64,000 nt of DNA, from NCBI GenBank assembly GCA_945903265.1, contig CAMDNQ010000009.1, positions 1 to 64,000 on the forward strand, read 5' to 3'. Below, in pieces: positions 39,912 through 54,852 of the stretch. The first letter of the stretch is position 1. Every line of letters begins with the position of its first letter. The notes below the pieces were generated by a model. That model worked only from the letters and a program-made list of their open reading frames with translations. It had not been told where the DNA came from and did no database searches. The stretch comes from Candidatus Sulfopaludibacter sp. SbA3 (GTDB taxonomy: Bacteria > Acidobacteriota > Vicinamibacteria > Vicinamibacterales > UBA2999). A program made the translations under genes and the position numbers.

Positions 39912-41372
39912 GTGGCAGCAACTATCGACGCCCGCTTCGTGCGCGAACTGGAGCGCATCTGCGGTAGCTCCGGCATCGTGCGGGAGCCGCTCGAGCTGCT
40001 GACGTACGAATGCGACGCGCTGCCACACCTGCGAGCCGTACCGCCGGTCGTCGTGCTGCCGGATTCGGCCGCGCAGGTCCAGCAGGTCGTCAGGTTGTGC
40101 AGCCGCGAGAGCGTGCCCTTCGTGGCTCGCGGGCATGGCACCGGTCTGTCGGGGGGCGCGGTTCCCGTTCCCGGCGGGGTCGTCATCGGTCTCTCGCGCC
40201 TCAACCGCGTGATCGATGTCGACATCCCCAACCGGCGGGTGACGGTTGAACCGGGCGTCACCAATCTCGAGATCACCCGGCAAGTGGCGCCGTTCGGCTT
40301 TTACTATGCGCCCGACCCCTCGAGCCAGCAGGTGTGCTCGATCGGCGGGAACGTCGCCGAAAACTCTGGCGGCGCGCACTGCCTCAAGTACGGCTTCACG
40401 GTCCACCACGTCATCGCCGTCGATGCGGTCATGCCGGACGGCGAGCTGGTGCACCTCGAAAGCGCCCTCACCGATGCACCCGGTCCCGATCTCGTGTCGC
40501 TGCTCGTCGGTTCGGAGGGGACACTCGCGATCGTCACGAAGGTGGTTGTCCGGATTCTCCGGAAGCCGGAGAGCGTCCGGACGCTGCTCGCGGCATTCGA
40601 CACGATTCGCGGCGCCGCCTCGGCGGTGTCCGAGATCATTGCCGCCGGGATCATCCCCGCCGCGGTGGAAATGATGGATGCGTTGTCCATCCGCGCGGCC
40701 GAAGCCGCCGTCCATCCCGGATTTCCCGCGGCGGAGGCTGTCCTCATCGTCGAGCTCGATGGGAATGGCGCCGAAGTCGCGGAACTGTTTCCGATCGTCG
40801 AAGAGATCTGCCGCCGCACCGGAGCGACGAGCATCGAGATTGCCGCCGACGAGCAGCAGCGCGCCCGCATCTGGAAGGGGCGCAAGGCCGCCTTCGCGGC
40901 GATGGGGCGCGTATCGCCGAACTACTACGTCCAGGACGGAGTCGTGCCGAGGACGAAACTGCCGGAAGTGCTCGAGCGCATTCGCGCGCTCGAGGCGCGG
41001 TGCGGCCTGCGCATCGCCAACGTCTTCCATGCCGGCGACGGCAACCTCCACCCGCTGATCTGCTACGACGAGAAAGTGCCCGGGGAGGCGGACCGCGCTG
41101 TCGAGGCGTCTGGCGAAATCCTGCTGTACTGCCTTGAGGCGGGCGGTTCCATCACAGGCGAGCATGGCGTCGGCGCGGATAAGAGCGAGTTCATGCCGAA
41201 AATGTTCACCGACGAGGACCTCGACCTGATGCTACGGGTCCGCGCGGCGATCGATCCGGGACATCTCTGCAATCCCGGCAAGGTCTTCCCGACGCCACGG
41301 CTCTGCGGCGAAGTGCCAGGGCCCTATCGGCAGCATCCGGCCGAAAAAGCCGGCCTGGCCGAGCGGTACTGA
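39912..41372 (+). CDS. glcD: Glycolate oxidase subunit GlcD (FAD-linked)
   Basis: A 486-residue FAD-binding PCMH-type oxidase that converts glycolate (or D-lactate-like 2-hydroxyacids) to the keto acid. The FAD loop is FVARGHGTGLSGGAVPV near residue 75, with SIGGNVAENSGGAHCLKYG near 150, GSEGTLAIVTKV near 200, and the C-terminal NVFHAGDGNLHP and GEHGVGADK metal and substrate motifs. It starts at GTG 39912. It overlaps glcE by 1 nt (TGATG). A peripheral membrane complex with GlcE and GlcF is expected from E. coli. Confidence 0.94.
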   Translation: MAATIDARFVRELERICGSSGIVREPLELLTYECDALPHLRAVPPVVVLPDSAAQVQQVVRLCSRESVPFVARGHGTGLSGGAVPVPGGVVIGLSRLNRVIDVDIPNRRVTVEPGVTNLEITRQVAPFGFYYAPDPSSQQVCSIGGNVAENSGGAHCLKYGFTVHHVIAVDAVMPDGELVHLESALTDAPGPDLVSLLVGSEGTLAIVTKVVVRILRKPESVRTLLAAFDTIRGAASAVSEIIAAGIIPAAVEMMDALSIRAAEAAVHPGFPAAEAVLIVELDGNGAEVAELFPIVEEICRRTGATSIEIAADEQQRARIWKGRKAAFAAMGRVSPNYYVQDGVVPRTKLPEVLERIRALEARCGLRIANVFHAGDGNLHPLICYDEKVPGEADRAVEASGEILLYCLEAGGSITGEHGVGADKSEFMPKMFTDEDLDLMLRVRAAIDPGHLCNPGKVFPTPRLCGEVPGPYRQHPAEKAGLAERY

Positions 41373-42622
41373 TGACGCTCTCCACCGACGCGCTCCTCCA
41401 ATCGTCATTTCTCGCGGGAGCGATCGCCCGCAGCGGCAAGGACGCCGACCGCATCGACGGCGTCGCGCCGCGCCTGGTCGTCGAGCCCCGCACGCCGGAG
41501 GAGGTGGCCTCGATTCTTGCCGCCGCGTCCCGCGAGGGGCTGACGGTCGTCTTTCGCGGGGGCGGCACCAAACGGGGTTGGGGGCGCATCCCGGCGGGTG
41601 TCGACCTGCTGATCAGCATGCGCGGACTCGCGCGCGTCATCGCCCACGAACATGCGGATCTGACCGCCACGTTCGAAGCGGGCGCAACCCTCGACGAGGT
41701 GAACGCCGCCCTCGGCCGCCACCGGCAATGGCTCCCGCTGGATGCGTCTGGCGACGGCAGCACCATCGGCGGCGCCATCGCCACCAATGACAGCGGGCCG
41801 CTGCGGCACCGGTTCGGCACACCACGTGATCTGCTGATCGGGATCCGGCTGGCAACAACCGACGGGCGCCTCGTCAAAGCCGGTGGGAATGTCGTCAAGA
41901 ACGTGGCGGGCTACGACCTGGGCAAGATGATGACCGGCTCGTTCGGCACCCTCGCGGCCATCGTCAGTTGCACGTTCAAGCTGCTCCCCATGCCCGCGGC
42001 ATCACACACGGTATCGGCAGCACTCCCCGACAAGGAATCTGTGACGCGCGCGCTTGTCGCCCTCAATGACAGCCAGCTCGAGCCGCTGGCTGTCGAACTG
42101 CAGGCGCAGGCGGGCCGAGCGCCCTATCGGCTACTCGCCCGGTTCGCGACGTCGCCCGCTGCGGCGGTCGCCCAGGCGGCGCAGGCACAGGGCCTTATTG
42201 GTGGGGGCGAAATCATCACGGGCGATCAGGAGGCCGCGATCTGGCGGCGCTATCAGGGTCGCGCGGCCGCGTCGGCGGGTACTGTTGTGCGCATGAACTG
42301 GCTGCCTGCCGCACTCCCTGGCGTCCTGGCGTTGTTTGAAACGCTGGCGCAGGCACACGGCAGCGTCGAACTGGTGGCGCGCGCCGCGCTGGGCGCGGGA
42401 CTGATCCGCATCGACGGCAGCATCGACTGGCAGGCCTCCGTCATCGAACGCCTGCGTGCCGCGGATGTCGTCCGGCACGTGACGATCGTCGATGCGCCGC
42501 CAGACGTCAAGCGGCAGGTCGACGTCTGGGGAGCGCTGGGCGCCGGCGGCGTGATCTCCTCCGCGATCAAGCGGGCGCTGGATCCGGCCGGCCTCCTCAA
42601 CGCGGGACGCGGACCGGTATGA
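41372..42622 (+). CDS. glcE: Glycolate oxidase subunit GlcE (FAD-binding)
   Basis: A 416-residue FAD-binding subunit related to GlcD but lacking its C-terminal catalytic metal motifs. The FAD loop is VVFRGGGTKRGWG near residue 60, and GSTIGGAIATNDSGPLRHRFG follows near 130, then NVVKNVAGYDLGKMMTGSFGTL. The length is a little greater than E. coli GlcE. It starts inside the glcD stop and ends overlapping glcF (ATGA), so the three subunits are coupled. Confidence 0.92.
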   Translation: MTLSTDALLQSSFLAGAIARSGKDADRIDGVAPRLVVEPRTPEEVASILAAASREGLTVVFRGGGTKRGWGRIPAGVDLLISMRGLARVIAHEHADLTATFEAGATLDEVNAALGRHRQWLPLDASGDGSTIGGAIATNDSGPLRHRFGTPRDLLIGIRLATTDGRLVKAGGNVVKNVAGYDLGKMMTGSFGTLAAIVSCTFKLLPMPAASHTVSAALPDKESVTRALVALNDSQLEPLAVELQAQAGRAPYRLLARFATSPAAAVAQAAQAQGLIGGGEIITGDQEAAIWRRYQGRAAASAGTVVRMNWLPAALPGVLALFETLAQAHGSVELVARAALGAGLIRIDGSIDWQASVIERLRAADVVRHVTIVDAPPDVKRQVDVWGALGAGGVISSAIKRALDPAGLLNAGRGPV

Positions 42623-43932
42623 GCGTGCCCACCACCACTCCCGGCGGACCGCCGGCATTCGACATCATCGAGCCGCCGTCCACGGCTCTCATCGACGCGT
42701 GCGTGCACTGCGGCTTCTGCCTGCCCACCTGCCCGACCTATCTGCTCTGGAATGAGGAGATGGATTCTCCGCGCGGTCGTATCTATCTGATGAAGGCGGG
42801 GCTCGAGGGACGCACACCGATGACGCCCACGTTTGTCGAGCACTTCGATCGGTGCCTCGGCTGCATGTCGTGCGTGACCGCATGCCCGTCCGGCGTGCAG
42901 TACGGACCGCTGATCGAGAAGACGCGGGCGCAGATCGAACGCCTGTACCCGCGCAGCGCCGGCGACCGCGCCTTCCGGGCGCTCTTGTTCAGCGTGCTGC
43001 CGTACCCGGGACGTCTTCGGATCGCGCTGGCGCCCCTGGCGCTCCTCTCCTGGCTGCCGAAGGCGCTGGACCGGGTGGGCCTCCTCGGCCTGCTTCCGTC
43101 ACGGATTGGCGCCCTTCTCCGGCTGGCGCCGCCAGTGTCGTTCGCAGGGCTCGCCGCCCGGTCACCCGTCGAGACTCCCGCGGCCGGCGAGCAGCGGATG
43201 CACGTGGGGCTGCTCACCGGCTGCGTGCAGCGCATGGCCTTCCCAGGGGTGAACCAGTCGACGATCAACGTCCTGTCGGCCGAAGGATGCCGTGTGAGCG
43301 CGCCGGCCGAGCAGGGCTGCTGCGGGGCGCTCTCGCTCCACGCAGGCAATGTGGATCAGGCCCGTGAGCTCGCCCGCCGGAATATCGAGGTCTTCGAGCG
43401 GTCCGGGGCTGACCGGATTGCTGTGAATGCGGCAGGCTGTGGCTCCTGCATGAAGGAGTACGGCCACCTGTTCAAGGACGACCCGGCGTGGGCGGCGCGG
43501 GCGAAGGCGCTCGGCGACCGGGTGCGTGACGTATCAGAAGTGCTCGTCGAGGTCGGCGAGCCGCGGGCTCGACGCCACCCGATCCCGGCGCGGGTCGTGT
43601 ACCACGACGCCTGCCACCTGGCTCACGCGCAGGGCATCCGCGCGGAGCCTCGCGCGCTGCTCGCATCGATCCCCGGTGTGGAGGTCGTGACGCCGGCCGA
43701 ATCCGAGATCTGCTGCGGCAGCGCCGGGATCTACAACCTGGTGGAGCCCGAAGCGGCGGCCCAGCTCGGTGAGCGCAAGGCCGCACACATCGCGCTGCTC
43801 AAGCCGGACATCATCGCGACCGGAAATCCCGGCTGCACGCTGCAGATTGCGGCCGCCGGCCGCCGGCTCGGACACACCTGGCGCATCGTGCATCCGATCG
43901 AACTCCTCGATCAATCCATCAGCGGGAAATAA
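42619..43932 (+). CDS. glcF: Glycolate oxidase iron-sulfur subunit GlcF
   Basis: A 437-residue iron-sulfur protein that passes electrons from GlcDE to the quinone pool. Two 4Fe-4S motifs lie at the N-terminus: CVHCGFCLPTCPTY near residue 29 and CLGCMSCVTACPSG near 80. Two CCG cysteine-rich domains follow (GCCGALSLHAG, AAGCGSCMKEYGH; YHDACHLAHAQG, EICCGSAGIYN). It is complete and of normal length. It is immediately followed by a hairpin that serves the convergent receptor gene as terminator. Confidence 0.95.
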   Translation: MSVPTTTPGGPPAFDIIEPPSTALIDACVHCGFCLPTCPTYLLWNEEMDSPRGRIYLMKAGLEGRTPMTPTFVEHFDRCLGCMSCVTACPSGVQYGPLIEKTRAQIERLYPRSAGDRAFRALLFSVLPYPGRLRIALAPLALLSWLPKALDRVGLLGLLPSRIGALLRLAPPVSFAGLAARSPVETPAAGEQRMHVGLLTGCVQRMAFPGVNQSTINVLSAEGCRVSAPAEQGCCGALSLHAGNVDQARELARRNIEVFERSGADRIAVNAAGCGSCMKEYGHLFKDDPAWAARAKALGDRVRDVSEVLVEVGEPRARRHPIPARVVYHDACHLAHAQGIRAEPRALLASIPGVEVVTPAESEICCGSAGIYNLVEPEAAAQLGERKAAHIALLKPDIIATGNPGCTLQIAAAGRRLGHTWRIVHPIELLDQSISGK

Positions 43933-43957
43933 AAAAGGCGGGTCCAAAGGACCCGCC
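43931..43957 (-). terminator. Rho-independent terminator for the TonB receptor at 44009
   Basis: On the minus strand GGCGGGTCC and GGACCCGCC form a 9-bp stem with a 3-nt loop, followed by TTTTTT. It overlaps the last bases of glcF. Confidence 0.85.
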
Positions 43958-43976
43958 CCACAAGTCGGACGTGTAG

Positions 43977-44008: not shown

Positions 44009-46990
44009 TTAGAACGTCAGCCGGACCCCCAGCTGCATCACGCGCGGCCAGTAGGCGATGTTCGAGTTGAACGCGGGCTGCCCGAAGAGGGCGTTGCTCT
44101 CGTTCGTCGTGTACGACCCGTAGTTCGCGTGATTGAGCAGGTTGAACACTTCGAACATGGCATCCACCCGCATGTTGCCGCCGAGCGGAATCCGCTGCTG
44201 GAGGCGCATGTCCGTGCGGTGGATCGGCTGCCCGACGAACGTGTTGCGCTGGACGATGGTGCCGTCGGCGCGCAGCCGCTGTTCGGAGATGCCGCTTTCG
44301 GCACGGCGATCGACGCCGGTGTTGACCGCGAGGCGTTCACCCGAGCCGTAGAAGTAGACGCCGCTCACCTGCAGCCCCCGGCCGATGTCGTAGATGCCGT
44401 TGGCCGTGAAGCGGTGGCGCTGGTCGCCCGTCGCGAACGTGTAGTCGCCGCCCATGTCCGATGCCAGCGGGAACGAGATCTCGCTGCTCGTCACCATGCC
44501 GTCCGACCCGAAGAACCACTGCTCACGCCGCGGATTCGCGTCTCTGAAGTGCGCCAGCGTGTAGCTGCCAGACATCTGCCAGTTGTCGCTGTAGCGCTTC
44601 GTGAGAGTGAAGTCGGTCCCGGCGTAGTTCGAGCGGCCGGCCAGCCACTCCATGTTCACCGTGCCCCAGTGCGGAAACGGCCGCAGGAGGGTGCCCGCGG
44701 CATCGCGCGCCGTGAACGCGTAATTGGCTCCAGTCGCCGGGTTATAGGCGAGGTTGGCGTTCATGCCCTGTTCTTCACGGCGTCCGCCGGTGTAGTTGAA
44801 GTTGGTCTCGAACGCCATCGCGTCGTTCAGCTGGTGCTGAAACCCGATGCCCGCCTGGTGCGCGTACTGCGGCGGGCGGCCTTCGTAGTTGATCTCCTGC
44901 GTCAGTGCGCGGAAGACGCAGCCGGCGCGCGAGTTGTTCACGTCGCAGGCGCGCGCGACGGCGTCGAGGCCCGTCGGCTTCGGACCGCCCCACTCGCCTT
45001 CCTTGCTCGCGCCGGGCCCGAACCAGTTGGTGACGAAGTCCGGCCTGCCGTCCGGGAAGATCTCGTTCTCGAACCGGGCGCAGTAATTCGCCTCGGTCGA
45101 GCAGAGATAGCCCTTGGTCTGCTGCACGCCGTCGTTGGGCTGGAACGCGAAGAACAGCCCGTAGCCGGCGCGTATGACGGTGCGTTCCGCCAGCTTGAAG
45201 TTCATGCCGACCCGCGGCGCGAAGTTCGCCCAGTTGGGCGACCGCTCGGTCACCCACGGACGGAACTCCAGCGTTTCGCTGTTGCCGTTGCTGTCCCAGT
45301 CCCAGCGAACGCCGAGATTCATCGTCAGCCGATCGCCCATGGCCCAGTCGTCCTGGATCCAGGCGGACAGGAGGTTCCGGGTGACGTCGTACGTGTGCTC
45401 GGTGCTCGTCAGCGAGTGCTGGACGTTGACGACGAGCGGGTTGAGGGGCGCGAGATTCCAGGTTGACGCGTCGTTCCAGACGGGGAACATGGCGGCCAGC
45501 TGCGCGTTATTCGGCGCCTGCGCCGGCGTGCCGCCGCGTGCGTCGACGCTGCCCATGCAGCGGAGGCACCACCGGAAGTCATTCAGGAACCACATGTACT
45601 CGCCGCCGATCTTCAGGTCGTGGCGGCCGCGCCATTCGCGCGACGTCGTGAAGTCGTCGCGGATGTTGGCGGTGTTCTGAATGATGTTCAGCGGGCTGAC
45701 GCCGATGCTGTAGCCGCGAAGCTGCGTGAGCACCGTGCCGCCCTCGAGCACCGGCGAGTACGGCAGCGGCCGCTGTCCCTTCCAGGTGATCGTCGCGGAC
45801 TGGTCCTGACGCTCGTAGAAGGTGGCGCCACCGCGGACTTCGTTCACCGAGCGATTGCTGAGGACCTTGGTCAGGGAGCCGGTGTACTGGCTCGTGATGC
45901 GGCCCCGCTTGCCCATGCTCGCCGGGTGGTTCGTCGCGCCGCCGCCCTCGAAGAACGTGGCGTTGTAGAACGAGATGCGCGACGACAGGCGCGTCTGCGG
46001 CGTGATCTGCCAGTCGAGACGGCCGAGCGGCTTGTGCGCGATGTTCGTGAACGAGAGATCCATGTTGAACGCGGGATACGGCCCGACGTAGGAGAACGTC
46101 TTCGGCTCCCGCTCGTACTCGTAGGTCGCAAAGAAGTGCAGCCGGTCACGGAGGATCGGCCCGCCGAATGTCCCGCTCGTCTGCTGGTTCGAATACGGCA
46201 GCACGCGCTTGGCGACGAAATCCTCGGAATTGAACTTGTCGTTGCGGAAGTAGCCGGCGACCGTGCCCGTGTAGGTGTTCGTACCGGACTTGGTGATCGC
46301 GTTCACGACCATACCCGTCGAGCGCCCCTGCGTGGCGTCGAAGCGGTTGGCCACCACCTGGAACTCGCCGATGGCGTCGCGGCTCCACTGCGGCTGCTCG
46401 TTGTCGCCGCCGGAGTGGTAGATCGTCGTGACCTGCTGGCCGTCGACGTTCGTCTGCGAGTAGCCCTGGCGGTTCTGCACGAAGCCGCCCGACTCGTTGC
46501 GGCGCGCGCCCGGCGTCAGCAGGGCAAGGTCCATCCAGTTGCGTCCGTTGATCGGCAGATCTTCCATCTGCCGCGGATCGATGTTGGCGCCGACGGCCGA
46601 TTCGGTCGTGTCGATGAGCGGCGCTTCGCCGGTCACGGTCACCGTTTCCTGCAGTGTCGCGGGGGCGAGCTCGAGGCCGAGGTTCAACTGCTGGCCGAGC
46701 AGCAGCTGGACACCCGTTCGCGTGACGGTCTGGAAACCCTGGAGCTGCGCCGTGACACGGAACGTGCCGACGCGAACCGGGATACGAAACGTGCCGGAGC
46801 CCTCGGTGACGGCCTCAAAGGTGTTGCCCGTCGCTTCGTGCACCGCGGTAACCGTCACGCCGGGCAGCACGCCGCCCGTCGTATCGGTGACGGTGCCCTG
46901 CAGCACCGCTTCCTGCGCCTGGGACACGGCCGGGAATCCGGCGATCATCGCGATCGCAAGACACCAGCCGATAAAACTCGACCTTCTCAT
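44009..46990 (-). CDS. Oar-type TonB-dependent receptor with carboxypeptidase regulatory-like domain (second)
   Basis: A 993-residue outer-membrane receptor paralogous to the one at 34796. A signal peptide (about 1-26, ending AVSQAQ), a regulatory-like domain (GTVTDTTGGVLPGVTV), a plug (GANIDPRQMEDLPINGRNW, QWSRDAIGEFQVVANRFDATQGRSTG) and a large barrel ending RLTF are present. The extracellular CLRCMGSVDARGG near residue 475 matches CNQCMGQLDLRGG in the paralogue. A TTGACG-18-TAGAAT promoter lies upstream and a terminator downstream, so it is a separate transcription unit. The substrate is unknown. Confidence 0.93.
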   Translation of the reverse strand: MRRSSFIGWCLAIAMIAGFPAVSQAQEAVLQGTVTDTTGGVLPGVTVTAVHEATGNTFEAVTEGSGTFRIPVRVGTFRVTAQLQGFQTVTRTGVQLLLGQQLNLGLELAPATLQETVTVTGEAPLIDTTESAVGANIDPRQMEDLPINGRNWMDLALLTPGARRNESGGFVQNRQGYSQTNVDGQQVTTIYHSGGDNEQPQWSRDAIGEFQVVANRFDATQGRSTGMVVNAITKSGTNTYTGTVAGYFRNDKFNSEDFVAKRVLPYSNQQTSGTFGGPILRDRLHFFATYEYEREPKTFSYVGPYPAFNMDLSFTNIAHKPLGRLDWQITPQTRLSSRISFYNATFFEGGGATNHPASMGKRGRITSQYTGSLTKVLSNRSVNEVRGGATFYERQDQSATITWKGQRPLPYSPVLEGGTVLTQLRGYSIGVSPLNIIQNTANIRDDFTTSREWRGRHDLKIGGEYMWFLNDFRWCLRCMGSVDARGGTPAQAPNNAQLAAMFPVWNDASTWNLAPLNPLVVNVQHSLTSTEHTYDVTRNLLSAWIQDDWAMGDRLTMNLGVRWDWDSNGNSETLEFRPWVTERSPNWANFAPRVGMNFKLAERTVIRAGYGLFFAFQPNDGVQQTKGYLCSTEANYCARFENEIFPDGRPDFVTNWFGPGASKEGEWGGPKPTGLDAVARACDVNNSRAGCVFRALTQEINYEGRPPQYAHQAGIGFQHQLNDAMAFETNFNYTGGRREEQGMNANLAYNPATGANYAFTARDAAGTLLRPFPHWGTVNMEWLAGRSNYAGTDFTLTKRYSDNWQMSGSYTLAHFRDANPRREQWFFGSDGMVTSSEISFPLASDMGGDYTFATGDQRHRFTANGIYDIGRGLQVSGVYFYGSGERLAVNTGVDRRAESGISEQRLRADGTIVQRNTFVGQPIHRTDMRLQQRIPLGGNMRVDAMFEVFNLLNHANYGSYTTNESNALFGQPAFNSNIAYWPRVMQLGVRLTF

Positions 46991-47066
46991 AGATCCTCCT
47001 GTGCTCCCTGGGTGACGGTAGATCGACGTACGAGGACGTGGTCTTGCCCGGTATGAAAGGTGCCGT

Positions 47067-47096
47067 ATTCTAGGGACGCTTCCCCCTGGACGTCAA
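47067..47096 (-). promoter_or_regulatory. Sigma-70-type promoter for the TonB receptor at 44009
   Basis: On the minus strand TTGACG (47096-47091) and TAGAAT (47072-47067) are spaced 18 bp apart, about 75 nt before the receptor ATG. Confidence 0.65.
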
Positions 47097-47101
47097 CAGA
47101 T

Positions 47102-47956
47102 TCAGCGAGCGCCGGCTTTCTGCACCGCCGGAGGCACCGGCATGATGACGTAGGGGTTATAGGTGTTCGTCTTGTCGATCATCAGCTCGAGGACGGCCTG
47201 GCCGTCGACGGTGCGCACGACCTTCGCCGGCATCAGGATGTCGGCTTTGTAGTCCGCTTCGTTCAGATCCGCGTAGCCGGAATACGTGTTCACGTACTTG
47301 CGGCCGCGGAACGTCACTTCGACCTGCGCCGGCCGGTACATCGCGTCGAGGGTGATCTTCATCAGCGTACCACTGAGCTCGCCGACCGTGACCGTCGTCG
47401 CGTTCTCGGGCTTGCCGTTCACCAGCGGGAACGTCACCACCGAGCGGCCGTTCTCCACGGTCACCTTCGCCTGATCACCGGCGGCGCGAGCCGCCTTGAC
47501 CGCCCCGGCCGGCGTCATCCAGAGACGCAGCAGCCGATCGGCGACGGCATCCATCGCGGGCGTCGCCGTACCCCATTCGGGCGCGAGCCCGCCGCCCAGT
47601 TTGTCGGTCTCATTCCACGCGAAGGTTCCGCTCACGACCTGGATGTCGCGGCGGCCGTCCCCGCGGACGGTGTCGATACGCATGCCGGGATGGTCGTAGG
47701 CAATCTGCGAGTAATAGCTCTTGAGCGGCACGGACGGCCCGACGCCGGTCGCGGTGACGTCGCGCATCGTGCCACGGCCCCAGAACTCCACCGTCATGAA
47801 GGTGTCGACCTCGTTGACGGTGCGAAGCATCCCGAGGCTGTTCGCCATGCTGTAGAAGACCTTCTGGCGGTCGGTCTCCTGGGCCTGCGCCGTGCTGGCA
47901 AGCCCGACTCCCGCGAGCACGGTCAGGATTCCGAATACGGCAATGGTCCGTCGCAT
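47102..47956 (-). CDS. Unnamed secreted protein, family B (copy 2)
   Basis: A 284-residue exported protein of no family I recognise. A signal peptide (about 1-25, ending STAQAQ) is followed by a beta-rich body with repeated motifs shared with the neighbour at 48051: TVEFWGRGTMRDV, GPSVPLKS, RDIQVVSGTFAWNE, YADLNEADYKADILMP and a C-terminal TNTYNPYVIMPVP. ATG 47956 has GGAG at 6-nt spacing; an in-frame ATG two codons earlier (47962) is also possible. A terminator of the upstream unit ends just 15 nt before this start, so its own promoter or readthrough is needed. Confidence 0.85.
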   Translation of the reverse strand: MRRTIAVFGILTVLAGVGLASTAQAQETDRQKVFYSMANSLGMLRTVNEVDTFMTVEFWGRGTMRDVTATGVGPSVPLKSYYSQIAYDHPGMRIDTVRGDGRRDIQVVSGTFAWNETDKLGGGLAPEWGTATPAMDAVADRLLRLWMTPAGAVKAARAAGDQAKVTVENGRSVVTFPLVNGKPENATTVTVGELSGTLMKITLDAMYRPAQVEVTFRGRKYVNTYSGYADLNEADYKADILMPAKVVRTVDGQAVLELMIDKTNTYNPYVIMPVPPAVQKAGAR

Positions 47957-47970
47957 CTGCATCTCCGATA

Positions 47971-48006
47971 AAAAAAGGCGCCTCGAAGCATATGCCGAGG
48001 CGCCTT
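47971..48006 (-). terminator. Rho-independent terminator between the two family B genes
   Basis: On the minus strand an 11-bp stem (AAGGCGCCTCG with CGAGGCGCCTT) and a 10-nt loop precede a run of T. It ends the DUF6152-family A-family B unit. Confidence 0.85.
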
Positions 48007-48050
48007 CAAGCCTGTCCGACGCCGTGAGCCACGGCGCTGCCCGGCGGTCG

Positions 48051-48929
48051 TTACCGTCCCGCAGCCTTCCGGACGCTGTCCGGCACCGGCATGAGGACGT
48101 ACGGGTTATAGGTGTTCGTTTTCTGAATCGTGAGGTCGAGCACGTTCTCGCCGTCGACGGTCTGGACGATCCGCTTCGGCATGAAGATGTCGGCCTGATA
48201 GTCGGACTCGTTCAGGTCGCCGTACTCGGAATACGTCGTCACATAGAGACGGTTGTTGTAGCGCACTTCGACGCGGGCCGGCTGATAGCGGGCGTTGAGC
48301 GTGACCTTGACCGGCGTGCCTTCGAGCGCGCCGACGACCAGGTTCGCGGTGTTCCCCGGCTTGCCGTTGCTCAACGGGAAGGTCAACGTGACCGCGCCGT
48401 TCTCGACCGCCGTCTTGGCGCTGGCCTGCGCCGCGAACGCCGCCTTGTAGACGCCCATCGGGCTCGTCCACATCCGAAGGAGCCGCTCGGTCACTGTGTC
48501 CATGGCGGGAACGGCGCTGCCCCACCCCGGCTCGAGACCGCCGCCGATCTTGTCGATCTCGTTCCACGCGTAGGTGCCGCTGACCACCTGAATGTCGCGG
48601 GTGCCGTTGGCGCGCGTCATGTCCACGCGCATCCCCGGGAAGTCATAGGCGAACTGGACGTAGACACTCTTGAGCGGTACCGATGGGCCGATCTTGGGGC
48701 CCACCTCGCGCATCGTGCCGGTGGCCCAGTACTCGACGGTGAGCACGGAGTCTTCGTCCTGCACGCCGCGATGCAGACCGAGGCCGACCTCGTTTCTGAA
48801 GCCGCCCCCCCCGCCACCCATGCGGTAGAGGACCCCCTTGAGGTCACTGACCTGCTGTTGCTGCTGCGCGACGAGTGCCGGCGATCCCATCAGGACCGCC
48901 AGGCCGATGGCTGCTGCGTACCTTCGCAT
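48051..48929 (-). CDS. Unnamed secreted protein, family B (copy 1)
   Basis: A 292-residue paralogue of the protein at 47102. The signal peptide (about 1-22, ending ALVAQ) runs into a Gln tract and a Gly-rich stretch (RMGGGGGGFR). Shared blocks are TVEYWATGTMREV, GPSVPLKSVY, DFPGMRVD, RDIQVVSGTYAWNE and TNTYNPYVLMPVP. The ATG at 48929 is preceded by GGAGGG, and the longer open frame upstream has no ribosome site. It follows family A copy 1 by 17 nt and is followed by a terminator. The function is unknown; periplasmic or surface localisation is inferred. Confidence 0.85.
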   Translation of the reverse strand: MRRYAAAIGLAVLMGSPALVAQQQQQVSDLKGVLYRMGGGGGGFRNEVGLGLHRGVQDEDSVLTVEYWATGTMREVGPKIGPSVPLKSVYVQFAYDFPGMRVDMTRANGTRDIQVVSGTYAWNEIDKIGGGLEPGWGSAVPAMDTVTERLLRMWTSPMGVYKAAFAAQASAKTAVENGAVTLTFPLSNGKPGNTANLVVGALEGTPVKVTLNARYQPARVEVRYNNRLYVTTYSEYGDLNESDYQADIFMPKRIVQTVDGENVLDLTIQKTNTYNPYVLMPVPDSVRKAAGR

Positions 48930-48946
48930 CCGACCCTCCAGAGTTC

Positions 48947-49825
48947 TCAACCGCGTTCCTTGGTAACCATGTGCTGCAGGTCGCGCTCGACGCACGGCAG
49001 CGGTTCTTCGAGCTCCGCCAGCGGATCGGTGTTCAGGAGCCGCCGCTGCGGGCCGGTCTTCCACGGCCGCATCAGCACGGAGTCGGTGACTTCGGCTTCC
49101 CAGGTCAGCGTGTTGCCGACGCGGCGGATCCGCTCGGTCACGCGTTTATCCGGCGACGTAAACCATCCCGGCCAGCCGAGCCACTCCAGGCCGTTGAAAT
49201 CGACCGACGAGATCACGAGGGTGTCGCCGTCCCACGTCCCGACGGAGTGCCCGAACCAGGTGCCGAGCCAGTGCTCCTCGGGCGGGTGCGGACGGCCATC
49301 CATGTAGATCCGGCGCATGTGCAGCGGGTAGATGAAGACCATGTGCCGGTCGGTCTGGATAATCTCCTGCGGGAGCCCGATTCGCGGGACGCCGGCCGGC
49401 ATGCACAGGAAGTCGGGGTCCGGCGCGAGCAGCGAATGGCCGTTCACGTCGTTGAACTGCACGCGCTCCCAGTGCTCGGGCTTGTACCAGGGCCGGCTCT
49501 CGCGCGGGAACACCCGCTGCCGGACGCCCGCGTCCCGCTCGAAGTCGACGGCGGCGCCGGTGCGGCCGCGGAGCACGTTGTCAAAACTGCCGGTCTTCTG
49601 GTCGAGCGCCGCAGGCACATTCTTCCCGCGCGGAACCGTGGCGACCCACAGACCCGACAAATCGATCACCCCGTTCGCCCGCTTCGGCGTGGGTTTCGAC
49701 TCCGCGTCCTTAATGGCGGCAGGCGTCATTCCACCGCCGCCGCCAAACTGCGCGGCGACGTCCGTGGACCCCACGCACGCCGCCACAAGGAACGCACCGA
49801 TACCGCTGATGAGGAAACGATTCAC
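48947..49825 (-). CDS. Unnamed secreted protein, family A (copy 1)
   Basis: A 292-residue exported protein of an unnamed family that I associate with Acidobacteriota. A signal peptide (about 1-25; a possible lipobox VAAC lies within it) precedes a beta-rich, aromatic-rich body. Conserved blocks include PWYKPEHWERVQFNDVNG, DPDFLCMPAGVPRIG, IYPLHMRRIYMDGR, EEHWLGTWFGHSVG, GDTLVISSVDFNGLEWLG and LPCVERDLQHM. It lies 21 nt after DUF6152 and 17 nt before family B. A close copy lies at 54022. No catalytic motif is identifiable. Confidence 0.85.
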   Translation of the reverse strand: MNRFLISGIGAFLVAACVGSTDVAAQFGGGGGMTPAAIKDAESKPTPKRANGVIDLSGLWVATVPRGKNVPAALDQKTGSFDNVLRGRTGAAVDFERDAGVRQRVFPRESRPWYKPEHWERVQFNDVNGHSLLAPDPDFLCMPAGVPRIGLPQEIIQTDRHMVFIYPLHMRRIYMDGRPHPPEEHWLGTWFGHSVGTWDGDTLVISSVDFNGLEWLGWPGWFTSPDKRVTERIRRVGNTLTWEAEVTDSVLMRPWKTGPQRRLLNTDPLAELEEPLPCVERDLQHMVTKERG

Positions 49826-49846
49826 GATGACGCTCCTGACGCTGTT

Positions 49847-50254
49847 TTACCGGTTCCCGGATGCATCCCCGAACCACAGCTGAATCTTGCGGCCGTCGGG
49901 GAAATGAATCGCGGTCGTGAAGATGCGCTCGCCACCGTCGCGGGCGGCAAAGCCCTCGAACGTGTAGAGATCGCCGATCCGGAGCGACGCGGGGCCGCGC
50001 AGGAATCCGGCCTGGCGCAGCGCGGCTGGACCGACCGTCTCGGCGCCCCACTGCTTGACTTCGCCCTTCTCGTCCTTCACGTTGAACCAGAAGTACGCAT
50101 GGGGATTAATCCATTCCATGCGGGCGAGATTGCCTTTGAGCGTCATCGATTTCTCGGTATCGAACTGCGCCTGCAGCGCGTGATGCGCCGACACCGACCC
50201 GGTCCACAGCAACAGGCCGCACAGAACCGCCACCGCACCAAGCATGTATTTCAT
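49847..50254 (-). CDS. DUF6152 family secreted protein
   Basis: A 135-residue exported protein. A signal peptide (about 1-23, ending SVSAH) is followed by the DUF6152 pattern HHALQAQFDTEKSMTLKG, ARMEWINPHAYFWFNVKDEKG, LRIGDLYTFEGFAARDG and HFPDGRKIQLW. The double His at the mature N-terminus is typical and might bind copper. The function is not established. ATG 50254 is preceded by GGAGG (50264-50260) at 5-nt spacing. A TTGACT-17-TACTTT promoter is upstream. It heads the unit DUF6152-family A-family B. Confidence 0.85.
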   Translation of the reverse strand: MKYMLGAVAVLCGLLLWTGSVSAHHALQAQFDTEKSMTLKGNLARMEWINPHAYFWFNVKDEKGEVKQWGAETVGPAALRQAGFLRGPASLRIGDLYTFEGFAARDGGERIFTTAIHFPDGRKIQLWFGDASGNR

Positions 50255-50311
50255 AGCCAAGCCTCCAGGAAAGAACGCGACCCCTCCGTTTTCCGCCGGA
50301 AATCTACGCGG

Positions 50312-50340
50312 AAAGTACAGCAGGGCAACCCCCGAGTCAA
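50312..50340 (-). promoter_or_regulatory. Sigma-70-type promoter for the DUF6152 unit
   Basis: On the minus strand TTGACT (50340-50335) and TACTTT (50317-50312) are separated by 17 bp. The DUF6152 start lies about 50 nt downstream. Confidence 0.5.
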
Positions 50341-50369
50341 TATACCGAAACTTCGACCATCCGCCCCAT

Positions 50370-51560
50370 CTAATTGAGCGCAATCGGCGCCGGACGCTGG
50401 AAACGGTTCGCGTCCACCGGCGCATTGAGGCGCACGTCCTTCAGCTTGTAGACGACGCGGTTGTTGGTCCACGCGCGGACCCACTGGAATGGCTTGCGGA
50501 TCGCGCCCACCTGGCGGTAATCAGAGAAGTCGAACCGCGTCGGAACAGGACCCACTGCCGTATCGTTCCAGCGCACCAGGCGCACGAGCATCCCCGCGTC
50601 GTTGAAGTACAGGTTGACCGGGGTTTCGCCCTTGTTCGTGCCCTGCAGCACGGTCACCGGTTCGTCGCCGACGAGGTCCTCGCTGACCTGCCACTGCGCA
50701 TACGCCTTCTGCACGGTCTGCGGCGCCACCTGCAGCAGGGCGTCAATGCGGAAGCCGGTGAGGTTGCCACCCGTGTAGTTCAACGTGAAGTTCGGGGCCG
50801 CCGCATCCACACCTGCGAACCAGGCATTCATCCCGTTGAACACGAAAATGTTGTCGCCTTCCTTGCGGTGAACCATCGTCGTGAACTGGTTTGGCGCCTG
50901 CGCAAAGAAGTCCACGGGCACTTCGACGTGCGAGGTATCCCAGCCGGCATAGGTCCCGGCCGCCGTGAAGCTCTTGACGCCGGCCCAGGCCTGCGCGCCG
51001 CCGATTTCCTGGATCCACTTCGCGAAAATCGCGTCGACGTCCTTGGCGCGATCCGGCAGCACGACGAACTCGAGGCGATCGGGGTTGTCCTCCGGAGGCG
51101 TGCCGTACTGGATCGACAGGTTCGGCGTGCGGTGCGGGAATGGCACGCCACTGTGGCACGTATAGCAGGTGACACGCCTCTGGTTGCCGAAGAAATTGCG
51201 GTTGATGGTGTTCGTCATCACCGTCATCTGGCGCGCGCGCTGAATCAGAGGAGTCGAGATGGCGAATGCCTCGCGGCTGCCGCTCAGAATCTCGGGCGCG
51301 TGACAACCGGTGCAGTCCCTCGTCGTGGCGGCCGCGAACATGCCCATGGTGTCCATGAACTCGTCGACGGTGATGCCCTTGAGCACCTGCACGTCCTTGA
51401 ACACCTGCTCGGCCATCTGCGGCGCCTGGCCGCCGGCGGCCTGCCCCTGCCCCGCGGCGTTGGTCACGGCGCCGGTCATGACACCGGTCACGCACGCGAC
51501 GAACGCCGCTGCCACGCAGAGAATCACCCCCCGAATCACCCGCCGCACTCCCACTTGCAT
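50370..51560 (-). CDS. Di-haem cytochrome c of the photosynthetic reaction-centre cytochrome family
   Basis: A 396-residue exported cytochrome. A signal segment (about 1-35) ends in a possible lipobox (FVAC). Two haem sites follow: EFMDTMGMFAAATTRDCTGCH near residue 85 and QMTVMTNTINRNFFGNQRRVTCYTCH near 130. In each, a Met about 16-20 residues before CxxCH can serve as the sixth ligand, as in the reaction-centre tetrahaem subunit. The C-terminal 250 residues are a beta-rich domain of unknown role. There are no photosynthesis genes here, so it probably carries electrons for an extracytoplasmic oxidation. The ATG at 51560 is chosen. Confidence 0.88.
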   Translation of the reverse strand: MQVGVRRVIRGVILCVAAAFVACVTGVMTGAVTNAAGQGQAAGGQAPQMAEQVFKDVQVLKGITVDEFMDTMGMFAAATTRDCTGCHAPEILSGSREAFAISTPLIQRARQMTVMTNTINRNFFGNQRRVTCYTCHSGVPFPHRTPNLSIQYGTPPEDNPDRLEFVVLPDRAKDVDAIFAKWIQEIGGAQAWAGVKSFTAAGTYAGWDTSHVEVPVDFFAQAPNQFTTMVHRKEGDNIFVFNGMNAWFAGVDAAAPNFTLNYTGGNLTGFRIDALLQVAPQTVQKAYAQWQVSEDLVGDEPVTVLQGTNKGETPVNLYFNDAGMLVRLVRWNDTAVGPVPTRFDFSDYRQVGAIRKPFQWVRAWTNNRVVYKLKDVRLNAPVDANRFQRPAPIALN

Positions 51561-51583
51561 GCTCACTCCCCTCGAAGTCACGG

Positions 51584-51609
51584 TAGGGGCCGGCTGCAGC
51601 CGGCCCCTA
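51584..51609. repeat. Perfect 26-bp palindrome between DUF6351 and cytochrome genes
   Basis: Each half is 13 bp (TAGGGGCCGGCTG and its complement) with no loop. There is no T-tract after it on the minus strand, so it is not a standard intrinsic terminator. It could be a regulator-binding site or an RNA hairpin that separates the two genes. Confidence 0.8.
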
Positions 51610-51636
51610 AAACCGACGAAGTATACATCGCGCCGG

Positions 51637-53934
51637 TCAGCGACCGGCGAGCTGCTGCGCACTGCCCGAACGCGGGTACGTCAACCACGTCTGCGGCGAC
51701 CGCTTCCCGACGCCAGGACGACTGTAGTCGCAGACGCCGCCCGCGAAAATGTCGCGCAGCGCCGCCAGCTGCGCGTCGCTCAACGGCGTCTTGTAGTCGG
51801 CGCGCTCGATTGGCTTGAGCTCGCACTTGACGCGGTCGTGCGTCATCGGCTCTCCGGCGACGAGGCGCGGGTTCGCGGCGACCGGAAACAACGCCCGGCA
51901 GCGTGATGGATCAGTGACCGGCTCGAGCGAGGCAAGGTAGCAGGTGTCGACCAGGTTGCTCGGCTTGTTGCGCACGACTTTGTCGAGGGCGCTCGCCGCC
52001 GGCGCGGTATCGCGCGCCATGCTGCTCAGCCACTCGTCCATCGCGTCCAGGACATAGCGCTGCGCTGCCTGAATCGGTGTGCCGGGCGCGTAGGTGCGAA
52101 ACACCTGGTTGTTCGCATGACCGTTCGCCGCCACCAGCCGCGCGCGCGTGATGTGATTGGCGACGATATCGTGCACATCGTCATCGCCGTCGGTGTACGG
52201 GCGGACGTCGATGATCGGCACCATGCTCAGCCCCCGGCTCGCGTCGTTGATCCGTCCCGTTTCGTACGCGATCCGGAGCGCCTCGGGATCCGCGATCGTC
52301 CGCTGCGGCACGAGAGTGCCGTCGATGTCGTGGCCGCCCGCCCGGCGGTTGACATCGACGAACTGCTCGAAGGTGATCCGGCCCTCGTTCAGCGCGCGGA
52401 GGCCGTACTGAATGCCGACGTTGTCGAACGGCCGGCGCGCGAATCCCGTGCGGGGGTCGAGGCCATAGACGTTGACCAGGTTGTCCTGATACGTGCACCG
52501 GGCTCCGGTGCGATTCGTCTGCGGATGGTAGACGGATGCGGCGGGCAGCGCGTCCGGATCGCAGTTGGTCGCCCGGAGGTTCGGATAGCCCGTCCCGTTG
52601 CGGTTGCAGTACGCCCATGAGGCATGTCCGGCGACGGCGGCCTTCTGTTCCGGCGTCCACGCGAGCGACGACGAGTTGAAGGCCTGGTTCAGCACTTCGC
52701 AGTCGAACAACGGTTCCAGGAAGGTCAGGTTGTCGGCATAGCTCGCGGTCGGGATGATGCCGTCCAGCAGCCCCGGATAGTTGTTGGCGATCATGTGCTG
52801 CTGCATCGAACCGCCCGACCGGCCGCTGCCAATCGTGTAACGCGGCACCCCGAACCGCTCAGCGAAGTGTTCCTTCACCATCATCATCGTCTCGGCCGAG
52901 ATCAGATCCGCGCAGCTCGTGCCAAAGACGTTGAGCGATCCCCCGGCAATCGCATAGCCGCGAGCGATCGCGTAATCGCCCACCTGCGACTCCTCGAGAT
53001 AATGGCGATTGGCGGTCAGACCACCGATCGATCGGCCCTGGTGATAGCCCGCGCGGCACCCACCACCGAAGCTGTAGAGCAGGCGGCCGTTCCACGATCC
53101 CGCCGTCCAGGGATCGGCCAGCGGCGTCCCCGGCTCGTGGAGAAACGCGATCACATAGACGGCGCGGTTGATCGTCCCCATTTCACGACGCACGATGTAC
53201 GGCACGGTGCGACCGTCGGTGGTCGTCGTCTGCGCCAGGTCCGCCGGCCGCGGGCCGGCCGGATCGAACGGCCTGAATGGATTCTGCTGCTGCGCGTTTC
53301 CAGCGCCACCGCCACCACCGCCGCCAGCGGCAGGCGCCGCCTGGTCGACCGCCGCGAGCGCGGCTGCGCTGTTGGCGCCGCCACCAGGGGCGGGCGCCGC
53401 CACCGGACGCGCTGCACCAGCCGGCGTCTCCAGCATCGGAGTCGCCGGTGTCCGCACGCGATAGAAGTATTCGACGCGCGTCTTCACCGTGCAGTTGCTG
53501 TCGACGGCCGCTCCGAGACCAAACGACTCGGTTTCGCAGACAAACGGCGTCTGGTGCGGGCCCGCGATGACGGGTCCGGCCGACGGGTGGTTGACGAGTG
53601 TGAGCTGTGCGGCTCGCTGTCCCGGTGCAGACGCTTCGAGGCGGTTCGATCCCACGTTCAACCCGGTCACGAGCCCGACAAGGGTCTGCGGCTGAGCGCC
53701 AGCGCGGAACGCGGTTCGTACGTCGCGCCCATTCAGCGTGACCGTGACCCGATCGGCGGCGGCGGCGCGGGGGACGGCGACCTGCACGAGCACTTCCCCC
53801 CCACTCACCGTGTCGGGGCGCGTCGAGAGCGTCCGAAGCTCCAGCCCCGGAGGGCCCGCCGGAGTCTGCGCTGACGCCGGCAGCGTGGCGATCGCCGCGA
53901 AGGCCGCAAGGCCAAGTGCGCGCATGCCTCTCAT
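51637..53934 (-). CDS. DUF6351 family secreted protein (probable alpha/beta-hydrolase)
   Basis: A 765-residue exported protein. A signal peptide (about 1-23, ending LPASAQ) precedes a beta-sandwich of about 100 residues and a Gly/Ala/Pro-rich linker (near 175-235, with a run of Gly). A hydrolase-like core has GRLLYSFGGGCRAGYHQG and the probable nucleophile elbow IGSGRSGGSMQQH near residue 370. Later HDIDG, IIDVRPYTDGDDDVHD and several Cys pairs fit DUF6351. The substrate is unknown; plant-derived esters are possible by analogy with tannase-like folds. ATG 53934 has AGGGAG upstream, and the cytochrome gene follows. Confidence 0.85.
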   Translation of the reverse strand: MRGMRALGLAAFAAIATLPASAQTPAGPPGLELRTLSTRPDTVSGGEVLVQVAVPRAAAADRVTVTLNGRDVRTAFRAGAQPQTLVGLVTGLNVGSNRLEASAPGQRAAQLTLVNHPSAGPVIAGPHQTPFVCETESFGLGAAVDSNCTVKTRVEYFYRVRTPATPMLETPAGAARPVAAPAPGGGANSAAALAAVDQAAPAAGGGGGGGAGNAQQQNPFRPFDPAGPRPADLAQTTTTDGRTVPYIVRREMGTINRAVYVIAFLHEPGTPLADPWTAGSWNGRLLYSFGGGCRAGYHQGRSIGGLTANRHYLEESQVGDYAIARGYAIAGGSLNVFGTSCADLISAETMMMVKEHFAERFGVPRYTIGSGRSGGSMQQHMIANNYPGLLDGIIPTASYADNLTFLEPLFDCEVLNQAFNSSSLAWTPEQKAAVAGHASWAYCNRNGTGYPNLRATNCDPDALPAASVYHPQTNRTGARCTYQDNLVNVYGLDPRTGFARRPFDNVGIQYGLRALNEGRITFEQFVDVNRRAGGHDIDGTLVPQRTIADPEALRIAYETGRINDASRGLSMVPIIDVRPYTDGDDDVHDIVANHITRARLVAANGHANNQVFRTYAPGTPIQAAQRYVLDAMDEWLSSMARDTAPAASALDKVVRNKPSNLVDTCYLASLEPVTDPSRCRALFPVAANPRLVAGEPMTHDRVKCELKPIERADYKTPLSDAQLAALRDIFAGGVCDYSRPGVGKRSPQTWLTYPRSGSAQQLAGR

Positions 53935-53953
53935 CTCGTTCTCCCTAATGAAA

Positions 53954-54004
53954 AATGCCCAATGCCCACGCGTGTTGCGCTGAGCATTGGGCACTGGACA
54001 TTGC
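53954..54004 (-). terminator. Heptamer-built hairpin terminator downstream of family A copy 2
   Basis: Two AATGCCC heptamers (53954-53967) face three related units (GCATTGG, GCACTGG, ACATTGC at 53984-54004) in inverted order. On the minus strand the stem TGCCCAATGC/GCATTGGGCA is followed by TTTTT, so it can terminate the family A gene. The heptamer build resembles 3754 and 60010. Confidence 0.7.
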
Positions 54005-54021
54005 GCCGTGATGTGTGAGGA

Positions 54022-54852
54022 TTACCCGCGCTCCCTCGTGACCATGTGCTGCAGGTCACGTTCGACGCAGGGCAACGGCTCTTCGAACTCCGCGTTCGGT
54101 GTGGCATTCAGCGTGCGCGTCTGTGGCGCGGCCTTCCACGGCTGCATCAGAATCGGGTCGGTCACCTCAGCTTCCCAGGTCAGCGTGTTCCCGACGCGGC
54201 GGATGCGTTCGGTCACGCGCTTGTCCGGGGATGTGAACCAGCCGGGCCATCCGAGCCACTCGAGGCCGTTGAAATCGACCGTGGAGATCACCAGCGTGTC
54301 GCCTTCCCACTTGCCAACCGAATGCCCGAACCACGTGCCGAGCCAGTGCTCCTCCGGTGGGTGCGCCCGGCCGTCGATGTAGACGCGGCGGATGTGCAGC
54401 GGATAAATGAACACCATGTGCTTGTCGGTCTGCAGGATTTCCTGCGGCGCGCCGATGCGGGGGACACCGGGAGGCATGCACAGGAAGTCCGGGTCCGGCG
54501 CGAGGAGGGAGTGGCCGTTCACATCATTGAACTGCACCTGCTCCCAGTACTGCGGCTTGTACCAGGGCCGGCGCTCGCGCGGGAATATCCGCTGCCGGAC
54601 GCCCGCGTCGCGCTCGAAATCGACCGAGTTCTTGTTGCCATTGCGGGCATTCGCCGTCGTCCGGAAGTTACCCGTCGCCGGATCCAGCGCACCAGGCACC
54701 ACGCCACGCGTCGGCGTGTTCACCCAGATGCCGGTAAAGTCCGGCACGCCATTGCGGCGCGGCACGTCGCCGCCCGCCGGCGTCTGCGCGGCCAGCGGTG
54801 CGCCGGCGAACGCCACAAGGGCGGCAATGCAAAACGCGAGGATCATCCGCAT
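54022..54852 (-). CDS. Unnamed secreted protein, family A (copy 2)
   Basis: A 276-residue exported paralogue of the protein at 48947. A signal peptide (about 1-22, ending APLAAQ) leads to a body nearly identical to copy 1 from VDFERDAGVRQR to the C-terminus, including DPDFLCMPPGVPRIG, IYPLHIRRVYIDGR, EEHWLGTWFGHSVG and LPCVERDLQHMVTRERG. The N-terminal third differs. The ATG at 54852 is preceded by AAAGGGAG. It has its own promoter and terminator, so it is monocistronic. Confidence 0.86.
   Translation of the reverse strand: MRMILAFCIAALVAFAGAPLAAQTPAGGDVPRRNGVPDFTGIWVNTPTRGVVPGALDPATGNFRTTANARNGNKNSVDFERDAGVRQRIFPRERRPWYKPQYWEQVQFNDVNGHSLLAPDPDFLCMPPGVPRIGAPQEILQTDKHMVFIYPLHIRRVYIDGRAHPPEEHWLGTWFGHSVGKWEGDTLVISTVDFNGLEWLGWPGWFTSPDKRVTERIRRVGNTLTWEAEVTDPILMQPWKAAPQTRTLNATPNAEFEEPLPCVERDLQHMVTRERG

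Follow-up and report, generated by a model that had tools for sequence, protein, structure and literature searches.

Do the eight consecutive genes at 44009-54852 in a stretch of DNA from Candidatus Sulfopaludibacter sp. SbA3 work together as one conserved pathway, or does a smaller unit lie within them? The window, by which we mean the whole 64,000-nucleotide stretch analysed (contig CAMDNQ010000009.1), carries these genes all on the minus strand with intergenic gaps of 17-115 bp. In the order of transcription, they encode the first copy of an unnamed family A (A1), a DUF6351 protein, a dihaem cytochrome, a DUF6152 protein, the second copy of family A (A2), two copies of an unnamed family B (B2, then B1) and an Oar-type receptor. 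The initial annotation had described the block as entirely exported with two duplicated families, and this description stands: signal-peptide-like N-termini were recognised by eye in 8/8 of the proteins, and the copies are 75.7% (A1 and A2) and 57% (B1 and B2) identical. It had also joined the eight genes into one system that could bind, oxidise or hydrolyse and import a complex substrate. This raises two questions. First, which of the genes stay together elsewhere? Second, what could those genes be doing in the cell envelope?

For the first question, family B, the rarest core member, was chosen as the anchor. A total of 51 distinct B genes were gathered from the organism's own genome, its relatives and the named genome collection, and co-occurrence was counted on the 41 of them with at least two genes on each side, contig-edge B genes being excluded; B-like matches longer than about 370 residues without A, taken as metallo-β-lactamase fusions, were also left out of the count. 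Family A is found within two genes of B or fused to it at 38 of the 41 loci, and DUF6152 within three genes at 37 of them. The corresponding counts are 19/41 for a receptor and 15/41 for a cytochrome, both within five genes, and 6/41 for DUF6351 within six genes; seen from the other side, B is nearby in 6/24 DUF6351 genes. The neighbour counts therefore identify B-DUF6152-A as the conserved unit rather than an eight-gene pathway, with the cytochrome, the Oar-type receptor and DUF6351 as optional members. The association of A, B and DUF6152 is solid, and the neighbourhood analysis called for initially was run as a test of the eight-gene reading. The outcome named in advance as refuting that reading, A and B mostly without these partners, was largely obtained for DUF6351 and by half for the cytochrome and the receptor.

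The same three families are also joined physically. Single proteins combine A and B at seven loci (L119, L139, L183, L193, L204, L205 and L209), some of which are copies of one contig, and DUF6152 is fused to A at two others (L077 and L121, the latter from a Rhodospirillaceae metagenome-assembled genome, in which family B also occurs). Further B-DUF6152-A stretches lie elsewhere in the own genome (L077, L079, L081 and L082, with a split version in L080) and in relatives (L099, L101 and L103). One of these relatives' loci, L103, keeps the order of the window, DUF6351-cytochrome-DUF6152-A-B-receptor, with 64-82% identity gene by gene, and has a single A and a single B where the window has two of each. 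A2 (48947-49825, minus strand), the copy at the conserved core position, is 71.1% identical to the A protein of L103, which is below the identity between A1 and A2; since L103 has one A only, the sequences indicate that the duplication of A is recent in the lineage of the window.

How widespread is the unit? The own genome (3.52 Mb in 45 contigs) holds 43 DUF6152 genes, 43 family A matches, 7 true B genes, 10 complete cytochromes like that of the block and 3 full DUF6351 genes. An A gene lies within 2 kb of 25 of the 43 DUF6152 genes, against 3.7% expected. A DUF6152 or A gene lies no more than 5 kb from 9 of the 10 cytochromes (12.5% expected, P 7e-8) and from 8 of the 9 genes for DUF6644 membrane proteins (12.5% expected, P 5e-7). 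Receptors are enriched more weakly (13/37, P 0.0004), and DUF6351 shows no significant enrichment. Among 149 genomes sampled from the phylum, Acidobacteriota, all 12 that have DUF6152 also have A, and one further, incomplete genome has A only, with 8 genera represented for each family; the Fisher value for this shared pattern, 8e-17, overstates independence because the sampled genomes are related. Beyond the phylum, a plasmid of Croceibacterium atlanticum carries DUF6152-DUF6152-A-TonB receptor, and a Novosphingobium plasmid carries A-DUF6152-A-DUF6152; near the latter lie TonB receptors and paired small membrane proteins that by eye resemble DUF6644. The impression of the initial annotation that it was looking at something undescribed is thus borne out for the core, which recurs in the own genome, in relatives and, as DUF6152-A, on plasmids of Sphingomonadales.

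It could be argued that unrelated exported genes simply pile up in regions rich in gene families and share no function, given that A and DUF6152 are multi-copy and that the own genome has about 37 Oar-type receptors. The fusions, the order kept across genera, the recurrence across phyla and the strong enrichment over genome-wide expectation all speak against such ordinary clustering, and we regard it as very improbable.

DUF6644 (PF20349) or look-alike pairs of small membrane proteins adjoin DUF6152 or A at L080, L123, L132, L133, L177, L213 and L215. These pairs carry a conserved histidine, as seen by eye, and the DUF6644 match was confirmed for the two Acidobacteriota proteins scanned. They may be the inner-membrane partner of the module.

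The second question was approached through the predicted folds and motifs of the three core families. Family B has no match of meaningful E-value in Pfam-A or NCBIfam. The AlphaFold2 model of B1 (47102-47962, minus strand) has a mean pLDDT of 89.7; Foldseek matched it to LolB with an E-value of 1.1e-6, and VIA-align gave Z scores of 15.1 to Porphyromonas LolB and 14.8 to 3bk5. From this good model we predict for family B, including B2 (48051-48929, minus strand), the fold of the LolA/LolB superfamily, to which LolB, LppX and RseB/MucB belong, and a role as a LolA/LolB-type carrier. Different from the known members, family B has no Pfam sequence match, is multi-copy and is encoded together with DUF6152 and A. 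A B-like LolA-type domain also precedes the metallo-β-lactamase domain in other proteins (hhalign probability 99.9%); exported proteins of this composite kind are common in these genomes (L080:6240-7823:+, L083:8755-10209:-, L089:9824-11314:+ and L102:15684-17267:-). Homology between families A and B at the sequence level was considered and rejected, with an hhalign probability of 0.3%.

Family A likewise gave no match of meaningful E-value in Pfam-A or NCBIfam, and its sequence matched none of the solved structures. Its fold was taken from a natural fusion protein in which DUF6152 and A were modelled jointly (mean pLDDT 74.8, pTM 0.51). The A part of this middling-confidence model forms an up-and-down barrel whose closest structural matches are NanoLuc, CRBP1 and the fatty-acid-binding proteins (FABPs), at Z ~9. 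A GxW motif, which is typical of calycins in the first strand, is found there in 96% of family A sequences, and Cys125, Cys262 and Arg155 are near-invariant. Family A, with A1 at 54022-54852 on the minus strand, is therefore predicted to be a calycin/FABP-like (lipocalin-like) barrel. It would differ from the FABPs, lipocalins and NanoLuc of that superfamily in being bacterial, exported and multi-copy, in its two near-invariant cysteines and in lacking sequence similarity to solved structures. The suggestion that A and B are binding proteins is in keeping with both predicted ligand-binding folds, calycin-like and LolA/LolB-like.

The DUF6152 protein (49847-50254, minus strand) matches PF19649 with 71.5 bits against a curated cut-off of 27, and we found no mention of the family in the literature searched. 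Its part of the fusion model is a five-stranded OB fold with Z 9.7 to PriB, so that an OB-fold protein is predicted from this middling model; matches of the fusion model to aminoacyl-tRNA synthetases and single-stranded-DNA-binding proteins reflect the OB domain only and were set aside. At the predicted signal-peptidase site, 69 of 71 DUF6152 sequences have Ala-His-His, with alanine always preceding the histidine pair, and therefore the mature protein, whose cleavage is predicted by motif, probably starts with His-His (His24-His25 in the window, codons 50185-50180). An Asn-Pro-His (NPH) motif is invariant in the alignment (codons 50107-50099 of the window copy). Taken together, the N-terminal His-His and the histidine of NPH suggest a metal site in DUF6152.

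Metal sites are known from exported proteins whose N-terminal histidine is conserved: four such families have recently been characterised as metal-binding, other exported N-terminal-His DUFs bind Ni or Cu, and DUF4198, an N-terminal-His protein encoded near TonB receptors, binds Ni (PMC12537917). DUF6152 is not named in the main text of that paper. It resembles the N-terminal-His metalloproteins treated there (LPMO, CopC, DUF4198, DUF6702 and anglerases) in being exported and in having a conserved histidine after the predicted cleavage site; as a putative metal binder, it would differ from them by its predicted OB fold and by two consecutive histidines plus NPH.

These features also invite the explanation that the block serves metal or metallophore acquisition or tolerance, in which periplasmic DUF6152 would bind the metal, A and B the metallophore, and the TonB-type receptor would import it. 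In line with this, AHH and NPH are conserved as above, DUF4198 offers a nickel-binding precedent beside TonB receptors, and the Croceibacterium receptor next to DUF6152-A has a siderophore receptor as its best model, with 175.5 bits and below the cut-off of that model. However, 43 is a high copy number for such a system, the block contains neither a metal transporter nor a metallophore gene, and its own receptor is of the Oar and not the siderophore type; for these reasons we consider a dedicated metal system unlikely.

A nutrient pathway, as envisaged at first, would instead start from the hydrolase. The DUF6351 protein (51637-53925, minus strand) scores 784 bits against PF19878 (cut-off 22.4), covering positions 1-654 of the 655 of the profile, and appears to be an exported tannase-like α/β hydrolase. 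The hydrolase elbow noticed initially is real at the sequence level: Ser370 is invariant in a GxSG motif (codon about 52818-52816), as is His585, in 24 sequences. True tannases and feruloyl esterases have a Cys-Ser neighbour pair within a CS-D-HC motif. DUF6351 was rejected as one of them, with Ser370 lying in G-R-S-G without an adjacent cysteine and no tannase Pfam match; its sequence matched none of the solved structures, and the literature searched yielded only a passing mention. On a plasmid of Caulobacter rhizosphaerae (L210), the neighbours of DUF6351 include a TonB receptor and GH2, GH3 and GH43 genes, a context hinting that it acts on plant-polysaccharide esters. In such a pathway, DUF6351 would act extracellularly on plant or phenolic esters, and their cleavage products would be imported by the receptor and bound by A and B; the cytochrome would take the electrons from the oxidation of these products. 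The tannase-like character with its invariant GxSG, the Caulobacter plasmid and the gene order kept in L103 fit this scheme. The scarcity of DUF6351 at B loci and of B at DUF6351 loci does not, nor does the block contain an aromatic-catabolic enzyme, and hence the scheme seems to us improbable, to much the same degree as the metal one.

The dihaem c-type cytochrome (50370-51560, minus strand) has the two CXXCH sites expected, at about 51314-51300 and 51167-51153, both invariant in 22 sequences. Its N-terminal part resembles photosynthetic reaction-centre-type cytochrome c (CytoC_RC, 49.3 bits, and NF033196). Unlike that type, it stays below the PufC and NF033196 cut-offs, has only two haem sites and bears an extra C-terminal domain of ~200 residues. 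This domain looks LolA-like by eye, and its homology to family B was unsupported (hhalign probability 4.2%). A 691-residue protein at L092:4705-6780:+, adjoining A-A-DUF6152, looks by eye like a fusion of a cytochrome-b-like membrane part with the dihaem cytochrome and its extra domain, which suggests possible electron exchange between the cytochrome and the quinone pool.

The last gene (44009-46990, minus strand) encodes an Oar-type outer-membrane protein resembling TonB-dependent transporters, with PF25183 (OMP_b-brl_4, 256 bits), PF13620 (CarboxypepD_reg, 60 bits) and PF00593 over cut-off and no separate plug-domain match in the Pfam scan; its counterpart at the equivalent place in L103 is 79.5% identical. 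With a receptor encoded next to a hydrolase and to exported, putative binding proteins, the block recalls TonB-linked uptake loci with Oar/SusC-like receptors; unlike these, it has no SusD or sugar enzymes, and its three-family core is kept without receptor or hydrolase. Transport may run in either direction, because an Oar-type transporter is needed for protein secretion in Myxococcus (PMC6434023). Export or surface assembly was weighed too: the Oar-type transporter would release proteins or lipids, for which A, B and DUF6152 would serve as outbound carriers, and the predicted LolB/LolA fold of family B agrees with this. Given that about half of the B loci have no receptor and that the alphaproteobacterial receptor is siderophore-like, we judge this quite unlikely.

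It had also been supposed that several of the genes have their own promoters and terminators, which is only partly right. Promoter-like sites in our scan were at chance level (1 versus 1.2 expected). Terminator-like sites numbered 6 versus 6.3 expected, and two minus-strand hairpins among them are strong: one between B2 and B1 (47974-48007; a 13-bp stem, then a T run) and one after the receptor at the end of the block (43935-43959; an 11-bp stem, then a T run). The block may therefore form two transcription units, split at the B2/B1 hairpin.

Next to the block, at 39912-43932 of the window, lie glcD-glcE-glcF-like (glycolate oxidase) genes. At L208 such genes lead straight into B-DUF6152-A without a change of strand, and Oar receptors and an acetyl-CoA-synthetase-like gene are close by; the block of L103, too, has a glcF-like neighbour. 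From these neighbours, a functional link of the module to 2-hydroxyacid oxidation is possible.

The explanation we tentatively favour, while granting it somewhat less than an even chance, is that the block is an elaborate copy of a repeated, undescribed envelope module for handling ligands or metals, with B-DUF6152-A as its core and a receptor, a cytochrome and an accessory hydrolase added. In this module, A, B and DUF6152 would work as a single complex, located in the periplasm or beyond it; the barrels of A and B would take up a small molecule of hydrophobic or amphipathic character, or a metal complex of it, and the His-His at the mature N-terminus of DUF6152 would, with the NPH histidine, provide a metal site. 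An outer-membrane TonB-type transporter would bring in or release the ligand. The dihaem cytochrome of the window copy would pass electrons to the ligand or metal or accept them from it. In the window and in a few related loci, DUF6351, as a tannase-like esterase, would cleave a larger ester to liberate the ligand. The numerous copies of the module would be variants that serve different ligands. Several points weigh against this explanation. At least half of the B loci lack the cytochrome and at least half lack the receptor, and about 40% of the own-genome DUF6152 genes have no A gene within 2 kb; the A fold comes from a middling fusion model whose Z of ~9 is near the level of matches between common arrangements, and the phylum-wide pattern was drawn from related genomes. 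The ligand, metal and partner contacts rest on inference, as do the redox role and the transport direction. A bolder version, in which DUF6152 would be a new N-terminal His-His class of metalloprotein on an OB fold and would form with A and B a periplasmic complex for redox-linked processing of ligands, supplied by TonB-type transporters and the dihaem cytochrome and present in dozens of ligand-specific copies per genome, we consider doubtful, with a modest chance of being right.

We see in this finding a good lead that does not yet amount to a demonstrated mechanism. It concerns two families at 43 copies each in a 3.5-Mb genome, both functionally uncharacterised and one without a Pfam or NCBIfam entry, in a phylum common in soil and groundwater. 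What were hypothetical proteins become a testable system, that is, a conserved and sometimes fused three-family unit with predicted folds and a likely metal site, and its DUF6152-A part is also present in culturable Sphingomonadales. The module would account for a considerable share of the proteins that these bacteria export.

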